A stretch of 21,490 nucleotides of DNA from a virus, in IMG/VR virus record IMGVR_UViG_3300050175_000062, positions 1 through 21,490 of that record. One strand, given 5' to 3'. The notes beneath the pieces were generated by a model, which was given only the letters and a program-made list of their open reading frames with translations, did no database searches and had not been told where the DNA came from. The translations under genes and the position numbers were made by a program. Shown piece after piece: positions 1,355 through 21,490 of the stretch (position 1 is its first letter; each line of letters starts with the position of its first letter).

Positions 1355-2029
1355 TTGGTTGGCATAACGCAAAAGAAGCTTAATGTCGTGGTAAGTGTCA
1401 GGGAGCTGTCGCTACTCATGGGCATTAATATCAGCGCGATGTATATCCATATCACGAATGGTATGCCTGTTGTCAAGACCAAGCAGAGCGGTGAACCGAC
1501 GAAGATACATGTCCCCTCCGCGATTTCATGGCTGATCGATGAAGAGGCAAAGAAGTTGGTGGCTGCCAGGGAGCGGTTGTTCGCGGGCACAAACGATGAG
1601 AAGGCGCGTTTGACGAAGGCGCAGGCGGATCACCGAGAGCTACTTGTTCAGAAGTTGGCGGACTCGCTTGTGCCTCTTGAAGACGTTGAGAGCACGATCC
1701 GAGAGTTGTTCGTGTTGCTTAGAAAATCCGTCATGGACCAGGCTGGGCGTCTTTCTTCTGAGCTAGCCAACGAGTCGGATCGATCTTTAGTGCGCCAAAT
1801 TCTATATAATGAAGGTCGTCAAACGATGGACGCGCTGTCCGATCTGGTGGTTAATTTTTGCGATATAGAAGAGGATGCAGAAGAAACAGAACGATCTTTT
1901 GAGCGTTCAGTGACTGGTGAGAACGGGCACGAAGAAAATGACTCGAGTACGAGAGGCGATCAAAAGACAGACACATCTGCTCCATGTCCAGGAGAGGATA
2001 AGCCCGTGGAAGTGGGCGGAGAAAGATAG
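1355..2029 (+). CDS. Terminase small subunit (Nu1-like DNA-recognition protein)
   Basis: The small subunit binds the packaging site and recruits the large subunit to phage DNA. Residues 12-60 read as a winged helix-turn-helix of the lambda Nu1 type: a VSVRELSLLMGI first helix pair, a recognition helix, then 'GMPVVKTKQSG...' and a closing AISWLI helix. The middle (70-165) is helical and charged, as expected for the oligomerisation region. The C-terminus from about 175 is very acidic and low in complexity, and would contact the large subunit. The start is a TTG at 1355 with TAGGT 8 bases upstream; the next ATG (1418) would cut into the DNA-binding domain. Length (224 aa) is somewhat above Nu1 (181 aa). 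The 3' end overlaps the start of the large subunit by about 90 bases, suggesting coupled translation. Confidence 0.8.
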   Translation: MVGITQKKLNVVVSVRELSLLMGINISAMYIHITNGMPVVKTKQSGEPTKIHVPSAISWLIDEEAKKLVAARERLFAGTNDEKARLTKAQADHRELLVQKLADSLVPLEDVESTIRELFVLLRKSVMDQAGRLSSELANESDRSLVRQILYNEGRQTMDALSDLVVNFCDIEEDAEETERSFERSVTGENGHEENDSSTRGDQKTDTSAPCPGEDKPVEVGGER

Positions 2030-3857
2030 GAGCTTACCCAGCGGCAACTCTGAGCCTGGGCCATATCGTACTAGCAGAGCCCCTTGGATTCGAGAGATTC
2101 TGGATCGGGCATCCTCAATCCGGCACAACAAAGTAATTTTCTGCTGCGGCTCTCAGCTAGCCAAGACAGACGGTGTTCTCATGAACCTCTTGGGGTGGCG
2201 CCTGTCAATCGATCCTGCCCCTGTCATCTTCTATGCCCCGACCAAAACGCTCGGGCGAGGAATATCCAAGTTCCGCCTGGAGCCAATGATAGAGAGCGTC
2301 AAGGCGCTAAAAGACGGGCTCAAGGGCGGTCACGACGACACCATATTCGAGAAGATCATCAACGGACAGCGTTGCGGCATCGGTTGGTTGGGTTCTAAGG
2401 CTCAGGCCAGGAGCTACAGCGCGCCGTTGATTTTGATTGATGAGCGCGATGCGATCCCACAGATTACTGCCGAGGGCGACGTCGTCGACGTGGCTAACGC
2501 TCGCTCTGCCAGCTACCCGGACAGGATGTGCGTGGTAACGAGTTCCCCACTAAAGGGATCGATTCGAAGTGCCGTACGGGAAGACACTGGCCTAGAACAT
2601 TGGGTTGTCAACCCTGACGATGAAATTGAATCGCCCACGTGGCTGCTGTGGCAGAAGGGTACGCGGCACGAATGGGCGTGGCCTTGCGTGCATTGTGAAA
2701 CCTTTTTCGTGCCTCGATTACGGCTACTGCGATGGGGTAACACAGAAGACCCTAATGAGGCCGCAGACAACGCCCACATGATTTGTCCTTCATGCGAGGA
2801 GAAGATTTACTACTCCAGTGTGGCGACGATGAACCTGGACGGGGTTCACGTAGCGCCTGGGCAGCGCGTTGTCAAGGGGGCTGTCGTTGGGGAGGAAGCC
2901 CCCAATCTGATTTTCAGTAGCTGGGTTTCCGGGTTGGTCTCTAATTGGATAGACTGGGCGGAGCGCGCCCACAATTACGTAAACGCGAAGATCGATGAGC
3001 GGCGCACGCCCGGCGCACTTCAGGCCTTCATGAATGTGGAAGGTGGGGAGCTATACCAGAAAGACAAGCAGACGATCAGCGATGTAGGGATCAAGGCATG
3101 TATGGCGGATTACGGGATGATGGAGGTAGATGAGCGAGTCACGGTGCTTACGATGGCCGCTGACGTGAGCGCAAACAGGTTCATCTACATCGTTCGAGGC
3201 TGGGCGCCGGACTACACTTCTTGGATGCTCGATGCTGGGCTGATTTTTGGGAATACGGATTATCCGAACGCCTGGCGCGATCTGCAAGAGTACATTGATG
3301 AAGCTGATTTTGGGGGCATGCCATTGCGCCGCATTGCTGTTGACGCAGGCTATCGGCCGAACAACACCTATGAATTCGCGCGCCTGAATCGAGGTATTGT
3401 TCACCCGGTCATGGGCAGCAATAATCAGAAAAAGCTGTACGCTACAAAGCCGGTAGATGTTGATATACGTGGTAAAGTTGTCAAGCATGGTGCTACACTT
3501 GGCGTATTCAACTCCAATGTGGCCAAGGATTTTGTCCACAGCCACATCATGTACGAGCAATCAGAGCCCGGAGCATTGATGGTCCCTAGAGATGTTCCTG
3601 AGAACTACTTCAATGAGATTCTTGCCGAATACAAGATGACCAAACCATCTGGGGAGGTGGTGTTCAAGCAATTGCGCAAAGATAACCATTATCTTGATTG
3701 CGAGGCGATGAACTACGTGATGGCTTATAGCGCGGGCATTCGGAGAAGACGGTCAAGGAGGGGTCCTATTGCTGAACCAGTCCCCCAGCAGCAGGACTCC
3801 TCGCCTCTCGTACAGCCTGGATCTGATTGGGGACAAGGCATTGGGGGCGGATGGTGA
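1938..3857 (+). CDS. Terminase large subunit (GpA family ATPase-nuclease)
   Basis: This is the packaging motor: an N-terminal ATPase that pumps DNA into the capsid and a C-terminal nuclease that cuts concatemers. Numbered from the ATG at 1938 (639 aa), the pre-ATPase region has the family signature 'EPGPYRTSRAPWIREILD' (39-56). A P-loop-like GSQLAKTD is at 71-78, Walker B LILIDERD at 164-171 and coupling motif VVTSSPL at 199-205. Paired CxxC motifs (C250/C253 and C283/C286) look zinc-binding. The nuclease half includes TMAADVSANRF, AVDAGY and the family C-terminal 'HYLDCEAMNYVMAYSAG'. A GTG at 1917 would add seven residues; neither start has a strong ribosome site. The 5' end lies inside the small subunit gene. 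The Walker A glycine before Lys is replaced by Ala. The tail after the nuclease is Arg-rich, then Gln/Pro/Gly-rich. Confidence 0.95.
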   Translation: MTRVREAIKRQTHLLHVQERISPWKWAEKDRSLPSGNSEPGPYRTSRAPWIREILDRASSIRHNKVIFCCGSQLAKTDGVLMNLLGWRLSIDPAPVIFYAPTKTLGRGISKFRLEPMIESVKALKDGLKGGHDDTIFEKIINGQRCGIGWLGSKAQARSYSAPLILIDERDAIPQITAEGDVVDVANARSASYPDRMCVVTSSPLKGSIRSAVREDTGLEHWVVNPDDEIESPTWLLWQKGTRHEWAWPCVHCETFFVPRLRLLRWGNTEDPNEAADNAHMICPSCEEKIYYSSVATMNLDGVHVAPGQRVVKGAVVGEEAPNLIFSSWVSGLVSNWIDWAERAHNYVNAKIDERRTPGALQAFMNVEGGELYQKDKQTISDVGIKACMADYGMMEVDERVTVLTMAADVSANRFIYIVRGWAPDYTSWMLDAGLIFGNTDYPNAWRDLQEYIDEADFGGMPLRRIAVDAGYRPNNTYEFARLNRGIVHPVMGSNNQKKLYATKPVDVDIRGKVVKHGATLGVFNSNVAKDFVHSHIMYEQSEPGALMVPRDVPENYFNEILAEYKMTKPSGEVVFKQLRKDNHYLDCEAMNYVMAYSAGIRRRRSRRGPIAEPVPQQQDSSPLVQPGSDWGQGIGGGW

Positions 3858-4372
3858 ACGAGCCGAGAAGCTTCTGGCAAGGCGATACGGTAAGCTGGTC
3901 GGAGTCGTTCGATGAATACCCGAGCACCGAAGGGTGGGTACTGAGCTACTTCTTTTCCCGTGCCGATGACAGCAGGGAGGTCATCGCCGTTGGGCAGCCC
4001 GACGGGAGCCATCTGGTAACGATCACCGCTGATGAAAGCCAACTATTCCTTGCTGGTCAGTATCGCTGGCAAGCACGCGTAGCCAGTGCCCCCCAGAACT
4101 ACACGGTTGGCTCGGCCCCCATTGAAGTAATCCCCTCCCTGAATGCCCAGGTGGAGACGCGAACGTCTTCTCAGGTAACCCTCGATGCGATCTCTGCGGT
4201 CATGGAAGGAAAAGCGAGCAGGGATCAATCGAAGATATCGGTCGGCGGTCAGTCACTGGACCGAATGACATGGGAAGATCTGCTGAAGGCGCACCAATAC
4301 TTCTCTAACAAAGTAAAACGCCAGCGGGTAGCGGCGGGAGAAGATTCCGCAGTAACCGTGGGGATATTCTGA
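3851..4372 (+). CDS. Head-tail joining/structural protein between terminase and portal (gpW position)
   Basis: The gene starts at ATG 3851, overlapping the terminase stop (ATGGTGA), and is 173 aa. The N-terminal ~95 residues form a beta-sandwich-like domain (FWQGDTVSW..., ...AGQYRWQARVA..., YTVGSAPIEVIP). The C-terminal part (108-160) is helical with 'LDAISAVMEGKASRDQ' and 'SLDRMTWEDLL', a pattern common to proteins at this locus in GpA-type phages and resembling the small gpW head-tail joiner. In lambda, gpW is 68 aa and sits at the same spot between A and B, so this one carries an extra N-terminal domain. Position and the C-terminal helical pattern support a connector or virion role; the exact function is inferred. 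Translation is probably coupled to the terminase and portal on both sides. Confidence 0.7.
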   Translation: MVNEPRSFWQGDTVSWSESFDEYPSTEGWVLSYFFSRADDSREVIAVGQPDGSHLVTITADESQLFLAGQYRWQARVASAPQNYTVGSAPIEVIPSLNAQVETRTSSQVTLDAISAVMEGKASRDQSKISVGGQSLDRMTWEDLLKAHQYFSNKVKRQRVAAGEDSAVTVGIF

Positions 4373-5904
4373 TGAGGTTCATGGAAAACCTGGCGTCGCT
4401 ATTGATGCCCTCGCCAGCCGTTTACCAGCCGAAGAGGAACGAGGCTGAGGGATTGCCAACAATAAAGGCGTCCTTCCCCGCTGGCCAAATCACCAGCACG
4501 ACGTCTAGTTGGAACACCGTTCCGCAATCCCCGAGCCAAATCATCTTCCAGGAACTGACGGCGATCAGAGCCCGGTCCCGGCAACAGTACGGCGCATCCG
4601 ATTACATCAAGAGATACACCAGGCTCGTCCGGTCGAATGTTGCAGGGCCGGAGGGTATGGGATTTCAGAGCCATGCAAGGTCGGCTGACGGGAAGCTGGA
4701 CATCGATCTCGGCAAACGGGTTGAGCGCGAGGTAAATCGTTGGCTGAAAAGGGGGGTTGATTTTTACGGAGAACAGGAGTGGCCTGAATTACTGTCAACG
4801 ATCATGACGACCCTCCCAATCGATGGGGAGGTTTTTGCGAGAATACGTACCGGACGTGATGCGGGGCCCTGGGGGTTATCCGTCCAGCTAATCGACGCAG
4901 AACTGATAAATGTTAGCGATTTCAGGCAGCTTCGAAACGGGAACATCGTTCGATTCGGGATCGAGCTTGACCGTCAAGGCCGACGAGTTGCTTACCACAT
5001 ATCGCCAAATTACGGATATGGGATTTACAGCGGAATACAAGACCCCGAGCGTCCTTCGAAGATTATCAGGGTGCCCGCGAAAAACATGCTGCATGTGTTT
5101 GATCGTGAATACGTGGGTCAACTCCGCGGCATTCCCTGGACGGTAACGGCGATCCCCCGCACTTGGCAGATGGAAAAGTATGATGAAGCCGCGCTCGTCA
5201 ATGCCAGGTGGGGGGCTGGGAAGATGGTTTTCTTCAAGACCCCTGACGGAGAGGGTCAATACTCGAAGGCCGATGGGGACAAATGGCCCAACGGATACAA
5301 GGTCCAGAAAATGGTTCCAGGGGCTACGGAGGAGCTTCCGCCTGGAGTAGAGCCAATCGGATGGGACCCAACCTACCCGAACAACGAGTACGGTGCATTC
5401 TCGGAAAGAAACCTTCGCGGGGCATCGGCTGGTCTCGACGTGTCGTACGAGTCCATAGCGAACGACCGCACGGGGGTCAATTTCAGCAGTATCAGAGCGG
5501 GAGTAATGGAGGATCGAGAAACCTGGAAATCACGGCAACTCTTTGTCAATCGAACATTTTGTGACCCGTTGATCGAGCGGTTTTTCTCGCTCCAGGCCAC
5601 CAAGCAAGGGTCTGTCTTCTTTAATCCAACGCAATATCCAGAGCAATTCGAAGACATTACGGAGCATAGCTGGCAGAATCGCACATGGGCCCCAATCCAG
5701 CCTGTGCACGACGTGACGGCATCGAAGATGGAGATAGAGATGGGCGTCAAGAGCCGGGCGCAGCACATGCGGGAGATGAACCGAGATCCTGCTGATACGT
5801 GGGAGGAAATCGCCAAGGAAGGAAAGATCATGTCAGATCTTGGGGTAGGAGAGCCAGAGCCAGGATCAGCAGAAATTGAGGTGGACGACGATGCCGACAG
5901 ATAA
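4372..5904 (+). CDS. Portal protein (lambda B family)
   Basis: The portal is a dodecameric ring at one capsid vertex through which DNA enters and leaves, and on which the shell is nucleated. The 510-aa product has the landmarks of the lambda-type portal family: 'YIKRYTRLVRSNVAGPEGMGFQ' near residue 80, a long wing with 'PIDGEVFARIRTG', the stem-preceding 'MLHVFDREYVGQLRGIPW', and the crown-side 'VNFSSIRAGVMEDRETWKSRQ' followed by 'DPLIERF'. Length matches lambda gpB (533 aa). The ATG at 4372 shares one base with the previous stop (TGATG) and has GTGGGGA 8 bases upstream. The C-terminal 25 residues are acidic and, at the DNA level, overlap the start of the protease-capsid gene by 14 bases. Confidence 0.93.
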   Translation: MRFMENLASLLMPSPAVYQPKRNEAEGLPTIKASFPAGQITSTTSSWNTVPQSPSQIIFQELTAIRARSRQQYGASDYIKRYTRLVRSNVAGPEGMGFQSHARSADGKLDIDLGKRVEREVNRWLKRGVDFYGEQEWPELLSTIMTTLPIDGEVFARIRTGRDAGPWGLSVQLIDAELINVSDFRQLRNGNIVRFGIELDRQGRRVAYHISPNYGYGIYSGIQDPERPSKIIRVPAKNMLHVFDREYVGQLRGIPWTVTAIPRTWQMEKYDEAALVNARWGAGKMVFFKTPDGEGQYSKADGDKWPNGYKVQKMVPGATEELPPGVEPIGWDPTYPNNEYGAFSERNLRGASAGLDVSYESIANDRTGVNFSSIRAGVMEDRETWKSRQLFVNRTFCDPLIERFFSLQATKQGSVFFNPTQYPEQFEDITEHSWQNRTWAPIQPVHDVTASKMEIEMGVKSRAQHMREMNRDPADTWEEIAKEGKIMSDLGVGEPEPGSAEIEVDDDADR

Positions 5905-7762
5905 CATGCTCTATTTCGACGGCTCGATTGACAGCACATCGGTACCCGAAGCGGGCGATGAAGTTCCAGGGCCAGATCACGTTTATTCGGCGACGTTGTC
6001 TTCTTCGAAGCCGGTGGATTTTTTGATGGGCGGGCGCAAGGTAAAGGTTGTGCTCGACCATTCTGACGGGGCTGTCCGAATGGGCCGCCTCAAAGATGGT
6101 GCTCCGATGATCGTCAATCATGACGCGGACCGCCTCGCTGGACACGTTGTTGCGTCGACATTGACCAATAACCAGATTTTCATTGATTTCCAGCTCTCCG
6201 GGAACGAAGAGGGTCGACGGGAAGCGATGATGGTCAAGGAAAAGACCAGAAGCAAGCTGTCGGTGGGGGCTGAGCCATACACAATTGTTCCTGAGGAAAG
6301 GGACGACGGTTCGGTTGTGCTTACTGTGACCGATTGGGAACCGCTTGAGGCTTCTCTTGCGACAATCCCCCGCAACGTGGACGCCAGGATCATGCAAACG
6401 ATCGGGCGAAATTTCGAACTGCATCTTGAGGACAAAATGATGCCAGAAATTCTAGAAAACACCGGGACTCAAGATGCGGCGGCGCAGGTCCAGGTCAATG
6501 ATGCGCTCTCGGGCGTTCGGATCAATGAGGCAAGGGAAGCTGCTCGGACTCAGGAAATCGATCGTATTCGGTCTATCACGGAGATGGGCCGGATACACGA
6601 TGCGGCTGGTGATGCACAGAAGTTCGTCAAGGAGGGGAGGGGTCTAAGCGAGTTTAACGCCCACCTTTTGAAAAAAATGGCGGATGATCCTGATGAGCCT
6701 TCTGTTCAGCGCGTGCCTGAGAATAGCGCCTCAATTGGGATGTCTCCCCGTGAGATGAAGCGATTCTCCTGGGGGCGCATTGTTCGGTCTCTCTCCTTCC
6801 CTGACGTGAAAAAGCACCAGACAGCGGCTGCCTTTGAGCTCGAATGCTCGGTGGCGGCCGCCGAGCGCATGGGGATTACGCCAGAAGGCATACTCGTGCC
6901 GAACGATGTGCTTACCTATGTTGGGCAAGCCGGAACGGCCGGCGAAAACCAGGAATGGGTAGGCACCGACACAGTAGGATTTATCGACAACCTTCGCAAC
7001 GCATCAATTTTCGCCCAGTTCAATCCGACTATTTTGAACGGGTTGGTCGGCAACGTCTCTATCCGGAAGAAGACTGGGTCGAGTACGGCGTACTGGACGG
7101 CGGAGGGGGGCGCAACAACTGCCTCTAGCATTCTATCCGGCAAAGTACCGTTGTCCCCTCGAAGACTCACGACGGAAAGCGCTTATGACAAGCAGTTGAT
7201 TGTTCAGACCGATCCCAGCGTAGACGCGATCTATCGAGGCGACATGGTTGAGACGATGGCGCTGGAGTATGACCGCGCGGCATTGTACGGATCGGGCACA
7301 AACAGCCAGCCAACCGGAGTTATTGGACAGACAGGCGTCACCAAGCTAACCGATTATCTTCTGGCCAACCCCGGACCGAGTTGGTCTGAAATTGTTGAGC
7401 TGGAGACTGCGGTCGCGAGTGCAAATGCGGCGGTCGGGAATCTCGGCTATGCAATGCCGGCTACTGGCCGAGGGCACTGCAAAACGCAAGCGAAATTCAC
7501 CAATGGCGACACCCCAATCTGGGAGCCGAACAACACCGTTAACGGCTATGGCGTTGGCGTCAGCAATCAAATCACGGACCTGCAGTATTGGTTCGGCAAC
7601 TGGCGTGATCTGATAATGGCGATGTGGGGTGCTCTGGACATGACGGCAGACCCCTTTACTCGCGCCTCCTTCAATGAAGTTCGGCTGATTGGGATGATGT
7701 ACGTTGATGTAGGCGTGCGTCATGGGGAGAGCTTCTCGTACATCGAGCGATCTGCGACCTAA
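5891..7762 (+). CDS. Fused prohead protease and HK97-type major capsid protein
   Basis: One 623-aa frame joins what are usually two or three genes. Residues 1-180 form a prohead protease: His77 in 'MIVNHDADRLAGHV', Ser124 in 'SKLSVGAEPY', Glu153 in 'PLEASLATIP'. Their spacing is close to the HK97 protease triad (His65, Ser114, Glu138). Residues about 185-290 are charged and helical, like the delta/scaffold segment. From about 300 the HK97-fold coat follows: 'GILVPNDVLTYV', the E-loop region '...TAYWTAEGGATTASS...', 'VDAIYRGDMVETMALEYDRAALYGSG..QPTGV' and the closing 'VRHGESFSYIE'. The protease would cut itself and the scaffold segment off the coat after prohead assembly. The chosen ATG has GAGGTG 7 bases upstream; a TTG at 5876 is a weaker alternative. 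No separate decoration protein gene is present. Confidence 0.93.
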   Translation: MPTDNMLYFDGSIDSTSVPEAGDEVPGPDHVYSATLSSSKPVDFLMGGRKVKVVLDHSDGAVRMGRLKDGAPMIVNHDADRLAGHVVASTLTNNQIFIDFQLSGNEEGRREAMMVKEKTRSKLSVGAEPYTIVPEERDDGSVVLTVTDWEPLEASLATIPRNVDARIMQTIGRNFELHLEDKMMPEILENTGTQDAAAQVQVNDALSGVRINEAREAARTQEIDRIRSITEMGRIHDAAGDAQKFVKEGRGLSEFNAHLLKKMADDPDEPSVQRVPENSASIGMSPREMKRFSWGRIVRSLSFPDVKKHQTAAAFELECSVAAAERMGITPEGILVPNDVLTYVGQAGTAGENQEWVGTDTVGFIDNLRNASIFAQFNPTILNGLVGNVSIRKKTGSSTAYWTAEGGATTASSILSGKVPLSPRRLTTESAYDKQLIVQTDPSVDAIYRGDMVETMALEYDRAALYGSGTNSQPTGVIGQTGVTKLTDYLLANPGPSWSEIVELETAVASANAAVGNLGYAMPATGRGHCKTQAKFTNGDTPIWEPNNTVNGYGVGVSNQITDLQYWFGNWRDLIMAMWGALDMTADPFTRASFNEVRLIGMMYVDVGVRHGESFSYIERSAT

Positions 7763-7764
7763 CC

Positions 7765-8082
7765 ATGTCGGAGTTCGACGGGCACGCTGCGGACATATGG
7801 TCGGAGGTCGAATCCGTGTTCGGCGATCAAGCCACTTGGCGCAGCGAAGCCCACCAAGATGTCCAGCTCGTCTTGGTAGCGGATTCGGACTACGAGACGA
7901 TCGAGACCAGAGGGGGCGAAGCGCTGGTGGTGGTGAAAGCTCAATTGGCTGATCTAGGCCGACGCCCGGCCCCTAATGATCTGATTGAAGTGCAGTCCGG
8001 AAGGCTTGCTGGTCACTACGAGTTTTTCTCCATTGTTGACGATGATGGCTATTCGATCAGCGTAGCGCTCAAGGCGATCTGA
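7765..8082 (+). CDS. Head-tail joining protein (lambda FII-like)
   Basis: A 105-aa protein directly after the capsid gene, starting two bases beyond its stop. Length and position match the FII-type head-completion protein (lambda FII, 117 aa), which binds the connector and forms the site for tail attachment. The N-terminus 'MSEFDGHAADIWSEVESVFGD..ATWRS' followed by a beta-rich remainder ending '..YSISVALKAI' fits the family pattern (short helical N-terminus, then a small beta-barrel). No clear ribosome site precedes the ATG, so expression probably depends on reinitiation from the capsid gene. The family call rests mainly on synteny and overall shape; medium confidence. Confidence 0.68.
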   Translation: MSEFDGHAADIWSEVESVFGDQATWRSEAHQDVQLVLVADSDYETIETRGGEALVVVKAQLADLGRRPAPNDLIEVQSGRLAGHYEFFSIVDDDGYSISVALKAI

Positions 8083-8612
8083 TGCAGGTTACGATTACGG
8101 GCACCGACAAGACCGCCAGGAAGCTTAGAGACCTCGGCAAGCTCTCGGCATCCGTCGTGCCGGGGGCCACGAGAAAGGCGCTCAGGTCTGGTCAGGCGCG
8201 GGCTGTGCGCGACACGGCTTTGGTGCTCAACCTGCCCTCGGCGAGGATCAAGAAGCAGCTCAAAACGACGCGGGATTCTTTGCTCGTTCGAAATCAAGAG
8301 CGGGAATCCTCTCCAACTCTTGGGGCTTTTCGGGGGAGGTTCGTTCGCAGCGGGCAGCGATCGGCTGGCTACCGGGTTCGCGTTTGGAAGGGATTGGGGC
8401 AACAACTTATCAAGCCCGCGTTTTCGATACCGCGTAGTAATTTGCCGTTCATCCGTACTGGTGCCGGGCGGGATTCGCCGATCCGTCCGCTGTTCGGGCC
8501 GAGGGTTGGCGTGGTCTTCAACACGATCCACACGAGCTTGCGCGATTTCATGCGCGATCGTCTGGTTACTGAATGGCGCCGCGCGATACAGGGGAGGCTT
8601 GCAAGGAAGTGA
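8082..8612 (+). CDS. Minor tail protein Z-like (tail completion)
   Basis: A 176-aa basic protein whose start overlaps the preceding stop by one base. The N-terminal 'MQVTITGTDKTARKLRDLGK' and 'ATRKALRSGQARAVRDTALVLNLPSARIKKQL' helices, a central very basic beta-rich region and the C-terminal 'SLRDFMRDRLVTEWRRAIQG' helix are characteristic of prophage minor tail protein Z. In lambda, Z acts late in tail completion at the head-proximal end. The high Arg content (about 30 Arg) suggests nucleic-acid or portal contact. Its stop overlaps the next start (GTGA), indicating coupled translation. Confidence 0.78.
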   Translation: MQVTITGTDKTARKLRDLGKLSASVVPGATRKALRSGQARAVRDTALVLNLPSARIKKQLKTTRDSLLVRNQERESSPTLGAFRGRFVRSGQRSAGYRVRVWKGLGQQLIKPAFSIPRSNLPFIRTGAGRDSPIRPLFGPRVGVVFNTIHTSLRDFMRDRLVTEWRRAIQGRLARK

Positions 8613-9056: not shown

Positions 9057-10034
9057 ATGGCTGTCGCGAAAGGCACACAAATCAATGTGACCGTGTACGA
9101 AGAGTCTGCATATGGCGTACCAGTGACGCCAGCCAGCGGGGTAAGGCTAGGCGTTTCTACGTTCGAGCCGCAAGCCACCCAGTCATTGATTCAACCCACG
9201 ACGATTACATCAGACCGTCAGCGCTCACGTCCAGATGCAGATGCTATCGACGTTACCGGGCCGCTACAGTACGAGCTAGCGCCGGGGGACATCGGGATTC
9301 TTCTCAAGCACTCGATCGGCACGGTCACGACCTCAGGGACCGGCCCCTATGAACACGTGTTCACGCCATCCGACCTCCCGGTCGGAATCGAGTTCGAGCT
9401 GGATAATGGCCCCTCGCTCGCCGGCCCTAGACGCTATCAAACGGTCGTGGGCGGCAAGATCGCATCGGTTACCTACACGTTCGGATCAACCGGTTATGCG
9501 ACGGCCTCGTGGTCTATCATCGGGCAGCAGGTGACCTACGCAGCGGCCCCCGCAGATGCGTCGCCGCTTGTTACTACGCATCGGTCGATGTCGATGGCGC
9601 GAGCGACAATTGAGAAGGATGGCGTAGCGCTCGGGGTTGCTTCTGATATCACGCTGACACTCAACAATAACGTCGAGACTGATATCCGGGCAATACAGCC
9701 GGGGGGATTGCGCATTGATGCGCCGGAGGGGTTTGTTGACGTCAACGGCACATTGACATCGTTTTTCACGGACGCGACGTTACTGGATGACGCGCTCAGC
9801 GGAACCCCGGCGGATCTCAAGATCATCTTGCAACGAGGGACTGGAGATGGAACGCAAGATAACGAGTATCTCGATTTGTTCGTTGGGAAGCTGATTTTCG
9901 AACCCACATCCTCTACGGTAACGGGACCAACATCGAGGCGCCTTCCTCTGAATTTCATCGGCTATAGGGACGGGTCGATCGACAGCATTACCGCAACACT
10001 ACGAAACCAGCTCGCAGGAGTGACGAAACCATAA
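9057..10034 (+). CDS. Major tail tube protein
   Basis: A 325-aa protein preceded by GAGGA (9045-9049) at 7 bases from the ATG. It reads as a long, all-beta tail tube protein of the two-domain kind found in many siphoviruses: 'MAVAKGTQINVTVYEESAYGV' start, repeated beta segments such as 'GPLQYELAPGDIGILLKHSIG', 'TYTFGSTGYATASWSIIGQQ' and 'DITLTLNNNVETDIRAIQPGG', and the C-terminal 'RRLPLNFIGYRDGSI'. Its hexamers would stack into the DNA-conducting tube. Ser/Thr/Gly-rich composition and lack of cysteine fit an abundant virion protein. It is larger than lambda V (246 aa), possibly because of an extra surface domain. The next gene starts one base inside its stop. Confidence 0.87.
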   Translation: MAVAKGTQINVTVYEESAYGVPVTPASGVRLGVSTFEPQATQSLIQPTTITSDRQRSRPDADAIDVTGPLQYELAPGDIGILLKHSIGTVTTSGTGPYEHVFTPSDLPVGIEFELDNGPSLAGPRRYQTVVGGKIASVTYTFGSTGYATASWSIIGQQVTYAAAPADASPLVTTHRSMSMARATIEKDGVALGVASDITLTLNNNVETDIRAIQPGGLRIDAPEGFVDVNGTLTSFFTDATLLDDALSGTPADLKIILQRGTGDGTQDNEYLDLFVGKLIFEPTSSTVTGPTSRRLPLNFIGYRDGSIDSITATLRNQLAGVTKP

Positions 10035-10399
10035 TGACTGTGCAACTAGATGATGATGATGAAGTATATGAAGTTCAGGTATTTTTCCAACCTCCGCGGA
10101 AGGGGAGAGGGAAGTCAAAAAGAGTGCCCGCTATTTTCCAATGGAATCTTTGCTCAGCAACATTGGTAAAAGACAATAGTTTGTCTCCAGAAGAAAAGGA
10201 CGAGTTACTCATGGAAGAATTCGTTGAAAAGCTTCACGATTGGGATGTAGAGGATAGTCGCGGAGAAAGAATTCCTTGCACGGAAGATAATGTGAGAAAG
10301 GCGTTAAACAAGTTATGGTTTCAAGACCAAATCTTGAAACAGTGGCTTATGCACTCTTCTCAGATGGAGTCGAAAAAAAAATCTGCAAGGGTTCGTTAG
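10034..10399 (+). CDS. Tail assembly chaperone, upstream frame (lambda G-like)
   Basis: A 121-aa acidic, helical protein lying between the tail tube and tape-measure genes, where siphoviruses encode the tail assembly chaperones. These coat the tape measure before tube assembly and are absent from the finished virion. 'SPEEKDELLMEEFVEKLHDW' and 'EDNVRKALNKLWFQDQILKQWL' are typical of the G-like N-terminal frame. It ends KKKSARVR, with the three Lys codons formed by a run of nine A at 10373-10381, a probable ribosomal slippage site leading into the frame at 10380-10748. GC content is about 40 percent in 10141-10260, against 58 percent in a stretch of the tape measure gene, so the gene looks compositionally distinct. 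Confidence 0.82.
   Translation: MTVQLDDDDEVYEVQVFFQPPRKGRGKSKRVPAIFQWNLCSATLVKDNSLSPEEKDELLMEEFVEKLHDWDVEDSRGERIPCTEDNVRKALNKLWFQDQILKQWLMHSSQMESKKKSARVR
10373..10381 (+). other. Putative programmed frameshift site (A9) in tail chaperone gene
   Basis: Nine consecutive A residues read as AAA AAA AAA in the upstream chaperone frame. A slip of -2 (or +1) here enters the frame that is open without a stop from 10338 to 10748. The -1 frame ends quickly at a TAG at 10405, so the usual lambda-type -1 shift would not give a long product. The two frames are both open only between 10338 and 10399, and this homopolymer is the only obviously slippery sequence inside that overlap. Confidence 0.65.
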
Positions 10400-10748
10400 G
10401 AATTTAGTTCTAGGCAAAAAAATACAGGAAGATCAGAAGGAACACTGTTTCTTGTGCAAGATGGCGCGAGAAAGTAAAGATCCATGCGAAGATTGCCCTG
10501 AATTATTCGAGATTTTGGAGGAAAATAGGGAGATTGCGTATCTGTTCTCCCTTTCGATGACGCAGGTGCGTCGTTCGGATAGGATTGTGTGGGGGTTCGA
10601 CTACGTAGCGATTGATCTTGTGGCGAAATGGCATGGGATCGAGGTCACCAAAGAGTTGCACGAAGGTCTTCTGATCTGTGAACTCGAATACTGCAAGATC
10701 CACAACGAGAGAATGACACCCCATGACGACCGAAGTTCTCAGGATTGA
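10380..10748 (+). CDS. Tail assembly chaperone, downstream frame (GT-like extension)
   Basis: This frame is open from 10338 and is most simply translated by frameshifting from the gene at 10034, giving a fusion of about 237-238 aa comparable to lambda gpGT (279 aa). It contains a C-x2-C-x9-C-x2-C motif (Cys codons at 10446, 10455, 10485 and 10494), then 'PELFEILEENREIAYLFSLSMTQVRRSD' and 'GFDYVAIDLVAKWHGIE', a helical pattern seen in T-like downstream chaperones of other phages. The only usual start codons near its beginning are TTG 10452, with AAGGA about 9 bases upstream, and ATG 10461. Both lie downstream of the first cysteine codon, so independent initiation would lose part of the motif. 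It overlaps the tape measure gene by 26 bases. Confidence 0.72.
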   Translation, partial: NLQGFVRNLVLGKKIQEDQKEHCFLCKMARESKDPCEDCPELFEILEENREIAYLFSLSMTQVRRSDRIVWGFDYVAIDLVAKWHGIEVTKELHEGLLICELEYCKIHNERMTPHDDRSSQD

Positions 10749-13311
10749 GCTGCAGGATACCGGGGGGAAGCAGACCCGCGCATCGCTGGAGAAAACGGGA
10801 GGATCGGTTGAGGGGCTGGGGAACCGCGTCAAGAATCTCACCGGCGCGCTTGGTGGCTATCGTACAATCCTAACGGCGATTGCAACGGGGGCCGCGGGCC
10901 GCTTCGTCACAGACACCCTCTCTCAAGTTGATGCCATCGGCAAGTTCTCGGACAAGATCGGCGCCAGCGTCGAAGCGTTGTCCGAGTATCGTCATGTAAC
11001 TGCACTGGCTGAGGTCGATTTCAAGACCTTCCAGAAGGCGTTGGAGACATCGACGATTCGGATATCCGAAGCAGCAGCCGGCAGTGGGGCCGCGAAAAAG
11101 GCTCTCGAAGAACTCCAAATACCCATCAAGCAGATCACGGAGTTGTCTGCGGACGAGCAGTTTGATGCGGTCTCCGAAGCAATGCAGGGCGTTGAGAATC
11201 AGTCTCGTCGCCTGAAACTCGCCTACGACATCTTCGGCCGTTCTGGAACAGACGTTCTGAAGATCATCAATCAGGGCACTGACGCGATCGATGAGCAGAG
11301 AGAGGCAGCTCGCGAGATGGGCGTGCAGCTCACGCAGGAGAACGTGAAGGCGGCCGCCGAGTTCAACGATGCGATGGAACGGCTGACCAGGACGTTCTCT
11401 GGCTTTGGGGAACAGGTTGTGCTCGTTGTTGTGGGGCCGCTGACCTCGCTGTTAGATACCATCCGAGATATCATCGAAACAATCACGGGCGCCGTTCGTG
11501 CTGTAAAGGAGTTCGCTCAAGGCCTGAAAAATGATTTGACGAGCGCGCTCACAGGAACACTTGGAGCCATGATTCGGACAGCGGCAGGGCTGAATGATGT
11601 TGCTGCGGCGGAGATCGAAGTGGCCGATGCGGGAGAGGAGGCAGCGAGAGGCCTGGATGCTTCGACAAAAGCGGCCACAGATTATCTAAAACCACTTGAT
11701 GCGGTCAAAAAAGAGACGGTGGTTATGGTCGATCTGTTGTCCGAGCAGGCGACGCAAGCGTTGATACTAGAGCAGGCGACAGAACGGCTGCGGATGGAAG
11801 AGGAAGCAGCCGCGCAAACAACGCGAGAGCGAACGGTCGCGGTAACCGGTTTGGTAGCATCGATCGCTACGCTGGCTGGGGTTGTCACGCCTGACCAAGT
11901 GGGCTCGATACTAGGGCTTGTCCAATCGGCTGGAACGCTCTTTGGGGTCTCGGGCGATCAGCTCGCCTCGATTGGCGCGGCTGGTTCCGTGGGTGCGGTG
12001 GGTGGCGCGTTGGTGGGTGGTGGTGGCACGGGTGCCGCGGTGGGTGGCGCGCTCGGGGCGATTGCCGGGAGTTTCCTGGGGCCGCTCGGGACCGCTCTGG
12101 GGGCCGCCGCTGGCGGTCTGATCGGCGGTATGTTCGACTCCGAGAACCAGCCGTCGGTTACCTTTGCGACGCAGGCTGGCGTGGCGGGAGCGCCTTCGCG
12201 CGGCCGGTTCGGTCAGCGCACGTTCGTATCGGAAGGCGCCCTGGGCCTCAACATTGTGGGGGCTCGTGATGGGGGCTCGTTGACACCTGAGCTAATCGCG
12301 TTCGCCGATACACTGACATCGCTGGATGATGCCATCGGGGGGTTTGTCGATGGACAGGAAGAACGATTGCAGGCGGCGCGGGCGGCGGCACAGTCGATTT
12401 CCAACGAGACCAACGCGGCCAACTTCGATCCTGCCGAGAACATCAGGATTCGGTTCAGCGCAATATTTGACGCGATTGGCGGAATAGAGGATGAGCTTTT
12501 CGACGCGTTCTCTCCGGACGGTGAGTTCGTTCCTCAAGTGGTCGCAGCGATCGAGGTACTGCGCAACCTGGGGGAAACATCGCAGCAGATCGCGAAAGTT
12601 TGGGACGAGACGGACGAGAACTTCCTGAGCGCAATCGGTTCGCTTCAGTTCCTGAACGATGTGCTCGATCAAGATGACCCTGTTGGTAGAATCCGCGATC
12701 AGATTGCCGAACTCGGGTTGACGGTCGAGGAGCTACAATCCCGGCAGTCGCAATCACTCATCGAACTCGCCCAATCCTACGATGGGTCGATCGAAGCCAC
12801 CAACCAAATGGCTTCCTCCGTCGCAGCGTTGGAGCAGGTTACCGCGCAGACGCTCATCGGGATCGATCGCGCACGCTCCGCCACCAACGCCGGCAGTGCT
12901 TCGGCGATCAAGCGCATTCGTCAGTCCGGTCTGTCGGCAACCGAGGTGTTTAGCGAGAACAGGGCCCAAGCTCAATCATTGCTGGGATCGCTGGAGTCTG
13001 GGACGATCACCTCGGCCGCCGGTATCCAATCGGCCGTGAGTGAAATCAACAGCTTGCTATCGAGCGGCTTCTTTGGGCTTGATCAATCCGGACGTGATGC
13101 GCAGCGCGAGTCTACGTTATCCCTGCTGGAGGACGCGAGGGCCACGGCAAGCAAGCAGTTTGACGCGCAGGAAGCCAGGGCGCGCCGCGAGCACGAAGCC
13201 GCGCTACAAGCTGCAGCAGACGGCCTGGCCGCCGCTGCTGCGCTCAATGAGGCGGCGGCGAATCTCAACAGCGCCGCGGATAATCTCAGCGATCAACGAG
13301 AGGTTGCATAA
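10723..13311 (+). CDS. Tail tape measure protein
   Basis: An 862-aa, largely alpha-helical protein that sets tail length and is ejected ahead of DNA. At about 0.15 nm per residue it predicts a tail of roughly 130 nm. Helical segments rich in Ala, Glu, Gln and Ser run through residues 1-400 and 490-862. They are broken by a glycine/alanine-rich hydrophobic stretch at about 416-472 (GAVGGALVGGGG..., ...GALGAIAGSFLGPLG..., AAAGGLIGGMF) that could insert into the host membrane. The C-terminal 60 residues are an almost pure Ala/Gln/Arg/Glu coiled coil. 'ALSEYRHVTALAEVDFKTFQKALE' and 'RLKLAYDIFGRSGTDVLKIIN' near residues 85-185 are a common tape-measure core motif. No peptidase domain is evident. 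The start lies within the downstream chaperone frame. Confidence 0.93.
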   Translation: MTTEVLRIELQDTGGKQTRASLEKTGGSVEGLGNRVKNLTGALGGYRTILTAIATGAAGRFVTDTLSQVDAIGKFSDKIGASVEALSEYRHVTALAEVDFKTFQKALETSTIRISEAAAGSGAAKKALEELQIPIKQITELSADEQFDAVSEAMQGVENQSRRLKLAYDIFGRSGTDVLKIINQGTDAIDEQREAAREMGVQLTQENVKAAAEFNDAMERLTRTFSGFGEQVVLVVVGPLTSLLDTIRDIIETITGAVRAVKEFAQGLKNDLTSALTGTLGAMIRTAAGLNDVAAAEIEVADAGEEAARGLDASTKAATDYLKPLDAVKKETVVMVDLLSEQATQALILEQATERLRMEEEAAAQTTRERTVAVTGLVASIATLAGVVTPDQVGSILGLVQSAGTLFGVSGDQLASIGAAGSVGAVGGALVGGGGTGAAVGGALGAIAGSFLGPLGTALGAAAGGLIGGMFDSENQPSVTFATQAGVAGAPSRGRFGQRTFVSEGALGLNIVGARDGGSLTPELIAFADTLTSLDDAIGGFVDGQEERLQAARAAAQSISNETNAANFDPAENIRIRFSAIFDAIGGIEDELFDAFSPDGEFVPQVVAAIEVLRNLGETSQQIAKVWDETDENFLSAIGSLQFLNDVLDQDDPVGRIRDQIAELGLTVEELQSRQSQSLIELAQSYDGSIEATNQMASSVAALEQVTAQTLIGIDRARSATNAGSASAIKRIRQSGLSATEVFSENRAQAQSLLGSLESGTITSAAGIQSAVSEINSLLSSGFFGLDQSGRDAQRESTLSLLEDARATASKQFDAQEARARREHEAALQAAADGLAAAAALNEAAANLNSAADNLSDQREVA

Positions 13312-16837: not shown

Positions 16838-17206
16838 ATGGCACAAGTAAAGCCAAACTGGTCGATACCCTGGCAAAAAGAGGGGAGGTTCGATGATCTG
16901 GACCACATCCGAGAGCACCAGCAGATCGCATGGGCCGCTGCCGGGCTTGGTGCGGATATGATTGTTCTTGGATGGAATTTGACATCGACGACGCGCAATG
17001 CCGACCAGTTCCCGACGCAGCGCGTTTACGAAGAGCCCGCAAGCGGATACAAGATCAGAATCACCATCACGTACACGGGTCTCAACCGCGACCGAACGAC
17101 CTACGAGTCCGACGTCGGCTCGGGGTGGGAGGCCTTTGATCCATCGGTGTTGGACGAGGTATTTGATGGTTCCGATCTTCTGCGCGCGACGGAGTGGTCG
17201 ACATGA
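16838..17206 (+). CDS. Small tail-tip protein, paralog 1
   Basis: A 122-aa protein starting 4 bases after the hub gene, with no recognised function. Near the N-terminus it has 'KPNWSIPWQ...DDLDHIREHQQ', then 'GWNLTSTTRNADQFPTQRVY' and a C-terminal half rich in Asp, Thr and aromatic residues. The same order of landmarks (P-[DN]-[WY]..P, an acidic [DN]-[LI]-[DE]..R-[EN] helix, a middle W, then [ND]AD followed by strands) is found in the next two products. The three are therefore probably paralogs from tandem duplication. Placement between the hub and the operon end suggests tail fibre or fibre-associated components. Translation is probably coupled to the hub. Confidence 0.75.
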   Translation: MAQVKPNWSIPWQKEGRFDDLDHIREHQQIAWAAAGLGADMIVLGWNLTSTTRNADQFPTQRVYEEPASGYKIRITITYTGLNRDRTTYESDVGSGWEAFDPSVLDEVFDGSDLLRATEWST

Positions 17207-17574
17207 GTATATCGCCCGATTGGACGACACCGGAGCGCTCGCACACCAAGACTCAAGATCTCGATGCGATCCGCGAGGGTATGTGGAACACGCTATTCAT
17301 TGCCGTTGCCTCGGTGGGGGGATTCCAGATCGGATGGGATCTCATCGCCTCCACGTTCGACGCTGACGGATTCCCGCTTACGCGCCGATGGAAAATCACC
17401 AAGTTCAACCAGAACAACGAGATTTACATGGTCTGGAACTACACGACGGGGGCTAGAGTTACCTCGATAGAGGTTTATCACAAATACCTTGGCCAATCGG
17501 ATTTGTTAACGGTTCCTGGGACGTGCACGTTCGGCTACGTGGGCGATTACATCGACACGTACACTTGGAGCTGA
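17203..17574 (+). CDS. Small tail-tip protein, paralog 2
   Basis: The start is the ATG at 17203, which overlaps the previous stop (ATGA), has GGAG 8 bases upstream, and gives an N-terminus (MSISPDW) matching paralog 3 (MSLSPDY). An ATG at 17194 would add three residues. The 123-aa product has 'TQDLDAIREGMWN', 'GWDLIASTFDADGFPLTRRW' and beta strands ending 'IDTYTWS', the same ending as paralog 3. No catalytic motif, signal or coiled coil is seen. Likely a tail-tip or fibre component by position; function not recognised. Confidence 0.78.
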   Translation: MSISPDWTTPERSHTKTQDLDAIREGMWNTLFIAVASVGGFQIGWDLIASTFDADGFPLTRRWKITKFNQNNEIYMVWNYTTGARVTSIEVYHKYLGQSDLLTVPGTCTFGYVGDYIDTYTWS

Positions 17575-17577
17575 ACA

Positions 17578-17943
17578 TTGTCACTTTCCCCTGACTATCG
17601 TCTTCCAAAACGATCTAGAACGAAGTGGAACGACATCGAAGCTTGGCGGAATCACAACATTCCGACGTTCGCAGCAGCAATCCATCTCGCCGGTGGGGAC
17701 CTGGCGCATTGGCGCACCATTGACGTGCAGTACGATGCAGATGGGAACGTGACGCAGATCTTGTACCAGTCGCCGACGGATGACCAGGCAAAAGCAACCT
17801 TCACGTACTCGAGCGGTCGATTGTCAGTCGCTGTGATTGCTTACAAGCGGATGCCTGCCCCGGGGGTGTTCGAAGCCACAGATCCAGATACGATCACAAT
17901 GAACTGGGTCGACGGTAATCTTTCAACCTATACTTGGTCCTGA
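17578..17943 (+). CDS. Small tail-tip protein, paralog 3
   Basis: A 121-aa protein starting at a TTG (17578) with GGAG (17567-17570) 7 bases upstream. This unusual start is supported because the resulting MSLSPDY aligns with MSISPDW of paralog 2. It has 'WNDIEAWRNHN', 'HWRTIDVQYDADGNVTQILY' and ends 'NLSTYTWS'. The middle strand pattern 'YDADGNVTQILY' resembles the beta-turn-beta unit Y-D..G-N-[VL] common in phage surface proteins. Only the framework positions are shared with paralogs 1 and 2, so the copies have diverged far. Function not recognised; virion tip location inferred. Confidence 0.78.
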   Translation: MSLSPDYRLPKRSRTKWNDIEAWRNHNIPTFAAAIHLAGGDLAHWRTIDVQYDADGNVTQILYQSPTDDQAKATFTYSSGRLSVAVIAYKRMPAPGVFEATDPDTITMNWVDGNLSTYTWS

Positions 17944-21261: not shown

Positions 21262-21490
21262 TTACCACTCAATGGTGTATATCCCATCTGGCCCATGAAA
21301 GATGGCTCCGATCAAATTGGCTCCGAACAAATCAGCTTCGTTCAGATTGGTTTTTACAAGATGAGCCCCGGCCAGATTAGCGCCGCCCATATCAGCCCCG
21401 CCTAGATCGGCGCCTCTCAGATTAGCGCCGCTCATATTGGCTCCGAACAAATATGCCCCGGACATATTGGCTTCGATCAGATTAGCTCCG
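21262..21490 (-). CDS. Pentapeptide-repeat protein (5' end outside window)
   Basis: The visible C-terminal ~75 residues are tandem five-residue units of the A-[ND]-L/M-x-[GE] type (GANLIEANMSGAYLFGANMSGAN... and onward), forming a right-handed beta-helix. The repeat continues upstream of the first internal ATG (21463-21465) to the window edge without a stop, so that ATG is not the true start and the gene is incomplete here. The last 14 residues (HGPDGIYTIEW end) leave the repeat as a capping tail. At the DNA level the repeats give an approximate 15-base period on the + strand, 21280-21490. Some pentapeptide proteins (MfpA, Qnr) mimic DNA and bind gyrase, but most have no known role. It is upstream of, and probably co-transcribed with, the HNH-like and nuclease genes. 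Confidence 0.85.
   Translation of the reverse strand, partial: GANLIEANMSGAYLFGANMSGANLRGADLGGADMGGANLAGAHLVKTNLNEADLFGANLIGAIFHGPDGIYTIEW

Follow-up and report, generated by a model that had tools for sequence, protein, structure and literature searches.

A probable G/GT-type tail chaperone pair of a virus whose two frames, in the sequence as given, meet at an A9 tract in the +1/-2 phase

The frameshift that joins the G and T parts of a tail assembly chaperone is conserved in tailed phages, as in lambda gpG/gpGT (Xu, Hendrix and Duda 2004, as cited in PMC5009743). Tail chaperones with -1, -2 or +1 shifts are known (PMC5009743), and for that reason the +1/-2 phase described here would not alone add a new kind. 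The -2 shift of the phage Mu tail chaperone (PMC5009743, PMC2628397) is similar to our locus in net phase and in the kind of gene. Another group for comparison is formed by tssM of Citrobacter (A11) and Yersinia (A9), the T3SS genes of Shigella and dnaX of Thermus, which also possess runs of at least nine A's or T's and yield mixed-frame mRNA and two protein lengths (PMC4256274, PMC5009743); unlike our locus none of them is a phage tail chaperone, and slippage in our case is a proposal. Transcriptional slippage at A11 and activity of the A9 site, of about 20-25%, were described for the tssM genes (PMC4256274), and nine A's in a row cause efficient slippage of bacterial RNA polymerase in vivo (PMC5009743).

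The DNA analysed here (the window) is a virus record in one linear piece, 21,490 bases long, whose genes for packaging, head and tail come in this order: terminase, portal, protease-capsid, tail tube, two overlapping frames and tape measure. The pair of overlapping frames is located between the gene of the major tail tube protein (9057-10034, plus strand; Phage_tube_2, PF18906, E 2.2e-35; phrog_290), which adjoins it on the 5' side, and the gene of the tape measure protein (10723-13311, plus strand; phrog_9483, E 1.4e-36), which adjoins it on the 3' side. The tube protein shares 34% identity with that of Microcystis phage MACPNOA1, whose own tube gene (4001-4990) is annotated in GenBank as XerD recombinase. 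The G+C content of the pair (10034-10748) is 41-46%, versus 57% in the tube and 60% in the tape measure gene, which would fit a cassette of separate origin. Further downstream, after a large tail-tip-like ORF, three successive ORFs of about 121-126 aa (starts 16838, 17194 and 17578, within 16838-17943) look by eye like tandem paralogues, and a small ORF of pentapeptide-like repeats (GANL/GADL) is found on the minus strand at 21262-21465.

The first of the two frames, G-like, runs in frame 2 from ATG 10034 to TAG 10397-10399 (10034-10399, plus strand) and its zero-frame product has 121 aa. The second one, T-like, is open in frame 0 from 10338 to 10748, its first ATG, GTG or TTG is TTG 10452, and within the overlap of the two frames an A9 tract occupies 10373-10381 (plus strand), which in the G register is read TCG AAA AAA AAA TCT. 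Thus we have two overlapping frames, the second without a start of its own, with a slippery site where they overlap. The T-like frame, going by the given sequence, is +1, or equivalently -2, relative to G, and not in the phase that -1 programmed ribosomal frameshifting would need: the -1 frame after the tract encodes EKKICKGSLGI and then ends with TAG at 10405-10407 (plus strand). The earlier note had described the two frames, the tract and a cysteine motif at precisely these positions, and its statement that the -1 frame is a dead end and that T is found in the +1/-2 phase agrees with our re-reading. Its phase claim, namely a -2 or +1 shift and not the common -1, is correct for the given sequence, although no intact relative has this phase.

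A9 is the longest A run of the window, where one such run is observed versus 0.15 expected (both strands, whole window), and by simple arithmetic about 0.0002 would be expected inside the 62-nt G/T overlap. The next-nearest A run, an A7 at 10416-10422, lies 3' of the stops of both other frames. We take the A9 tract as the candidate shift site, and its place matches that of the A_AAA_AAC sites of relatives. G+C by codon position in 10382-10445 has the T-frame pattern (0.62/0.14/0.43), unlike the other two phases, which places coding in the T frame directly 3' of the tract. The tract had earlier been set against the classical heptamer; this contrast does not hold, since A9 includes an ordinary A_AAA_AAA. 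By comparison, the shift site of the Mu tail chaperone is G-rich. A Shine-Dalgarno-like GGAG (10366-10369, plus strand) is located 3 nt 5' of the first AAA codon, at the spacing of the prfB +1 site, and this four-base motif is a weak hint of a +1 slip. A search 3' of A9 for a downstream stimulatory RNA hairpin gave nothing better than shuffles.

Both parts show homology to known G and T, with the G side weaker. The T domain of the predicted fusion (KKNLQGF...SSQD; 10374-10748, plus strand) matched phrog_680 with E 1.4e-7 and appears DUF1799/DUF7697-like; its match to Pfam DUF1799 (E 0.027-0.033) had 15 bits, under the cut-off of 26, and a DUF7697 match was found in T domains of eight of the ten relatives scanned. 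A T profile built from relatives, with the window left out, matched just one of 417 window ORFs, the one at 10338-10745 (E 1.3e-4). For G, the match to the tail assembly chaperone family phrog_313 (E 0.0014) was weaker than that of T, and a G profile of relatives ranked the G frame first of the 417 ORFs at a weak E of 0.025, in an alignment that stops at the A tract. The AlphaFold model of T is a helical domain with a mean pLDDT of at least 90 over residues 51-110; several of its nearest viral folds are named tape measure chaperone, none of these matches passing E 0.001. Neither a PDB fold search with the T model (no significant match) nor a PDB sequence search with the T profile (nothing usable) added to this, and T had no match in cyanobacterial genomes. 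From the position between tube and tape measure, the T profile matches, the predicted T fold and the profiles of relatives, we conclude that 10034-10748 is almost certainly a G/GT-type tail chaperone pair, of the lambda kind, joined at the A tract. A tail chaperone with fusion at the tract had been proposed earlier from the letters alone, and it is now upheld by synteny, profiles and the codon signal of the T frame. Like lambda gpG/gpGT, the pair has the tube/tape-measure position, a short G, an overlap, a slippery site and a T accessible only through the shift; unlike lambda, it has a +1/-2 instead of a -1 phase and A9 in place of the lambda heptamer.

Related tail modules were reached via the tail tube protein and include MACPNOA1, a human gut phage contig and many proteobacterial prophages; in these tube-derived relatives a short G-like ORF comes next after the tube, and then a T-like frame. 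Relatives recruited by terminase mostly have tails of other kinds. Direct searches of IMG/VR for homologues, by single proteins or by a two-sequence alignment of the tube, were unsuccessful, and two of our alignments (A1 and A4) lacked any stretch of the conservation that a collection scan needs. G and T profiles were run over all fetched loci. T was in the -1 phase to G in all 114 intact non-identical relatives, a count biased by 80 loci collected by a scan with patterns that contain residues adjoining the shift site, and which therefore represents far fewer independent lineages, by our guess 15-20. The window itself was unscored in this survey, as its G did not reach the threshold of the profile, and its phase was read directly. 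Six or seven A's followed by C (A_AAA_AAC) were present in 107 of 116 tabulated shift-site rows and G_GGA_AAC in four. Distant modules reached through the tape measure protein (L011, L094, L112 and L144) are by inspection -1 too. One of them, L144, is a viral relative with an A9 of its own and with RKKNL in its T, in the register of the window; it is an ordinary -1 site, because its G frame differs by one base from that of the window. In a prophage relative (L172, reverse complement, 530-1595) the A run is cut to A5 and T is broken over two frames, and its chaperone gene has probably decayed.

The nearest profile homologues of the pair are the DUF7697/DUF1799 four-cysteine chaperones (proteobacterial prophages L054-L080, L161-L171 and L187-L266, and MACPNOA1), which have the CxxC...CxxC-P motif near the T start and a shift site at the same place, and differ from the window in the -1 phase (114 of 114 intact) and mostly in A_AAA_AAC. 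Judged by these sequences, the window is the sole intact exception to the -1 phase among the relatives surveyed. A tract of A's had been called an unusual shift site: this needs correction, as A tracts are common in the family, with the 107 of 116 rows and the A9 of L144.

The strongest rival to a genuine A9, absent from the earlier note, is a one-base miscount of the run: the true run would be A10, with one A lost in assembly or in a minority haplotype, and the shift would be an ordinary -1 on A_AAA_AAA. One more A would indeed make the window an ordinary -1 case, in which G would end SKKKICKGSLGI and -1 leads directly into T. Every intact relative is -1, L144 combines a long A tract with this phase, and the longest A run of the window is the sort of place where a count can err. 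On the other side, the main genes of the window other than the pair are open and without frame breaks. Moreover, a viral contig (L081) is 99.25% identical to the window with zero indels over 6163 aligned bases (L081 613-6775, window 1974-8136, gap-free), an A7 and several 6-base runs included, which argues for low-indel data; this alignment ends at position 8136, before A9. We therefore consider the miscount possible, though rather doubtful. The same contig has at its start (1-568) a second stretch, 93% identical to window 1574-2140 and overlapping the region already matched, which would be either a duplication or a chimeric end.

A real loss of one base from an ancestral A10 would give the same single-base difference from the family pattern, and would mean a lineage or subpopulation in which the site is damaged or varies in length, tolerated or non-functional. 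In one version it would be tolerated because slippage on A9 still yields some fusion. Replication tends to slip on long A runs (PMC3711429), and the probably degraded prophage relative has a shortened run (A5) and a broken T; nevertheless G and T of the window are otherwise intact and its whole structural operon is open, and we regard this explanation as improbable.

The T part begins in relatives with a KK-x-L helix, also present in the window just 3' of the A tract, followed by CxxC...CxxCP and a helical domain. In the window the motif is C-x2-C-x9-C-x2-C followed by P (C-F-L-C-x9-C-E-D-C; 10446-10499, plus strand). The window T aligns with relatives over its length with all four cysteines matched, and the four columns are invariant in the alignment of relatives (A6). 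ATG, GTG and TTG are absent from T 5' of the cysteines in ten of 15 relatives, and in the remaining five such codons lie upstream of the shift site, so that between the shift site and the cysteines of relatives none of the usual start codons occurs. A separate start of T at TTG 10452 or ATG 10461 without any frameshift, for which there is an AGAAGGA about 10 nt 5' of the TTG, is very improbable, since both codons lie 3' of the first cysteine (10446), invariant in the aligned relatives, and such a start would lose it together with the KK-x-L helix that relatives keep 3' of their shift site. The comparison with homologues, which the earlier note had itself put forward as a test, went in its favour: the two-frame organisation and the four cysteines persist, and the cysteines are accessible only through the fusion. 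The shift would restore the motif, as had been claimed, yet across the aligned relatives the motif appears as a family feature, not peculiar to this phage. We know of no such four-cysteine domain in lambda T. In the AlphaFold model the four-cysteine stretch has low confidence, which bears on the question of zinc binding. The annotation of MACPNOA1 (L002) gives T as a short ORF of its own, 5631-5906, and leaves the four cysteines outside it.

The two frames, the homology to G and T on both sides of the tract and their phase are thus read from the sequence itself; nine as the true count, production of a fusion and the route of the shift are what we infer from it. We propose, with a probability of about 0.58, that A9 is genuine and that the G-T fusion is made by slippage on it. 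Most translation would stop at 10399 and give G, which, by analogy with lambda, would coat the tape measure protein; a smaller share of expression would shift frame at A9 and continue as the T domain with four cysteines, and the T part, again by analogy, would bring in tail tube subunits. If A9 is correct, the -1 slip of the family leads nowhere in this phage, and a net change of +1 (or -2), versus -1 in relatives, is what the fusion requires. Against a genuine A9 stand the 114 of 114 intact relatives with -1 phase, among which no relative confirms A9 with a +1/-2 phase. Shifting by -1 on long A runs is efficient, a reporter with a 9-A cassette having given 40% (PMC3711429), and an efficient -1 slip on A9 would here waste ribosomes on a dead end, which would also count against slippage.

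Under a genuine A9 the likely route is homopolymer slippage by RNA polymerase, by the ribosome (-2 or +1), or by both. RNA polymerase may produce A8 or A11 transcripts that are read directly into T, or an A10 transcript on which an ordinary -1 ribosomal slip would follow. The ribosome may make a direct -2 slip of two tRNA-Lys, which is possible because all positions re-pair, or a direct +1 slip with the GGAG 3 nt before the first AAA. A9 reaches the length of at least about nine A's or T's considered as the threshold for transcriptional slippage (PMC5009743). We tentatively suggest, as a doubtful variant of the proposal, that RNA polymerase slippage, perhaps with a -1 slip on A10 transcripts, makes the fusion, and that the loss of one base turned a conserved switch of the ribosome into one of transcription. 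Our literature search for a tail chaperone made by transcriptional slippage returned only a review and prediction papers; if true, such a chaperone would be more interesting than the phase alone.

The G-T shift belongs to the most conserved recoding events of phages, and within the family surveyed its direction is constant. The four-cysteine T domain is documented here as a conserved element of the fusion to which only the shift gives access. A single homopolymer exception, if true, would mean that a programmed shift can change its phase by one base with the fusion kept, and would show whether RNA polymerase can replace the ribosome in the G-T switch.
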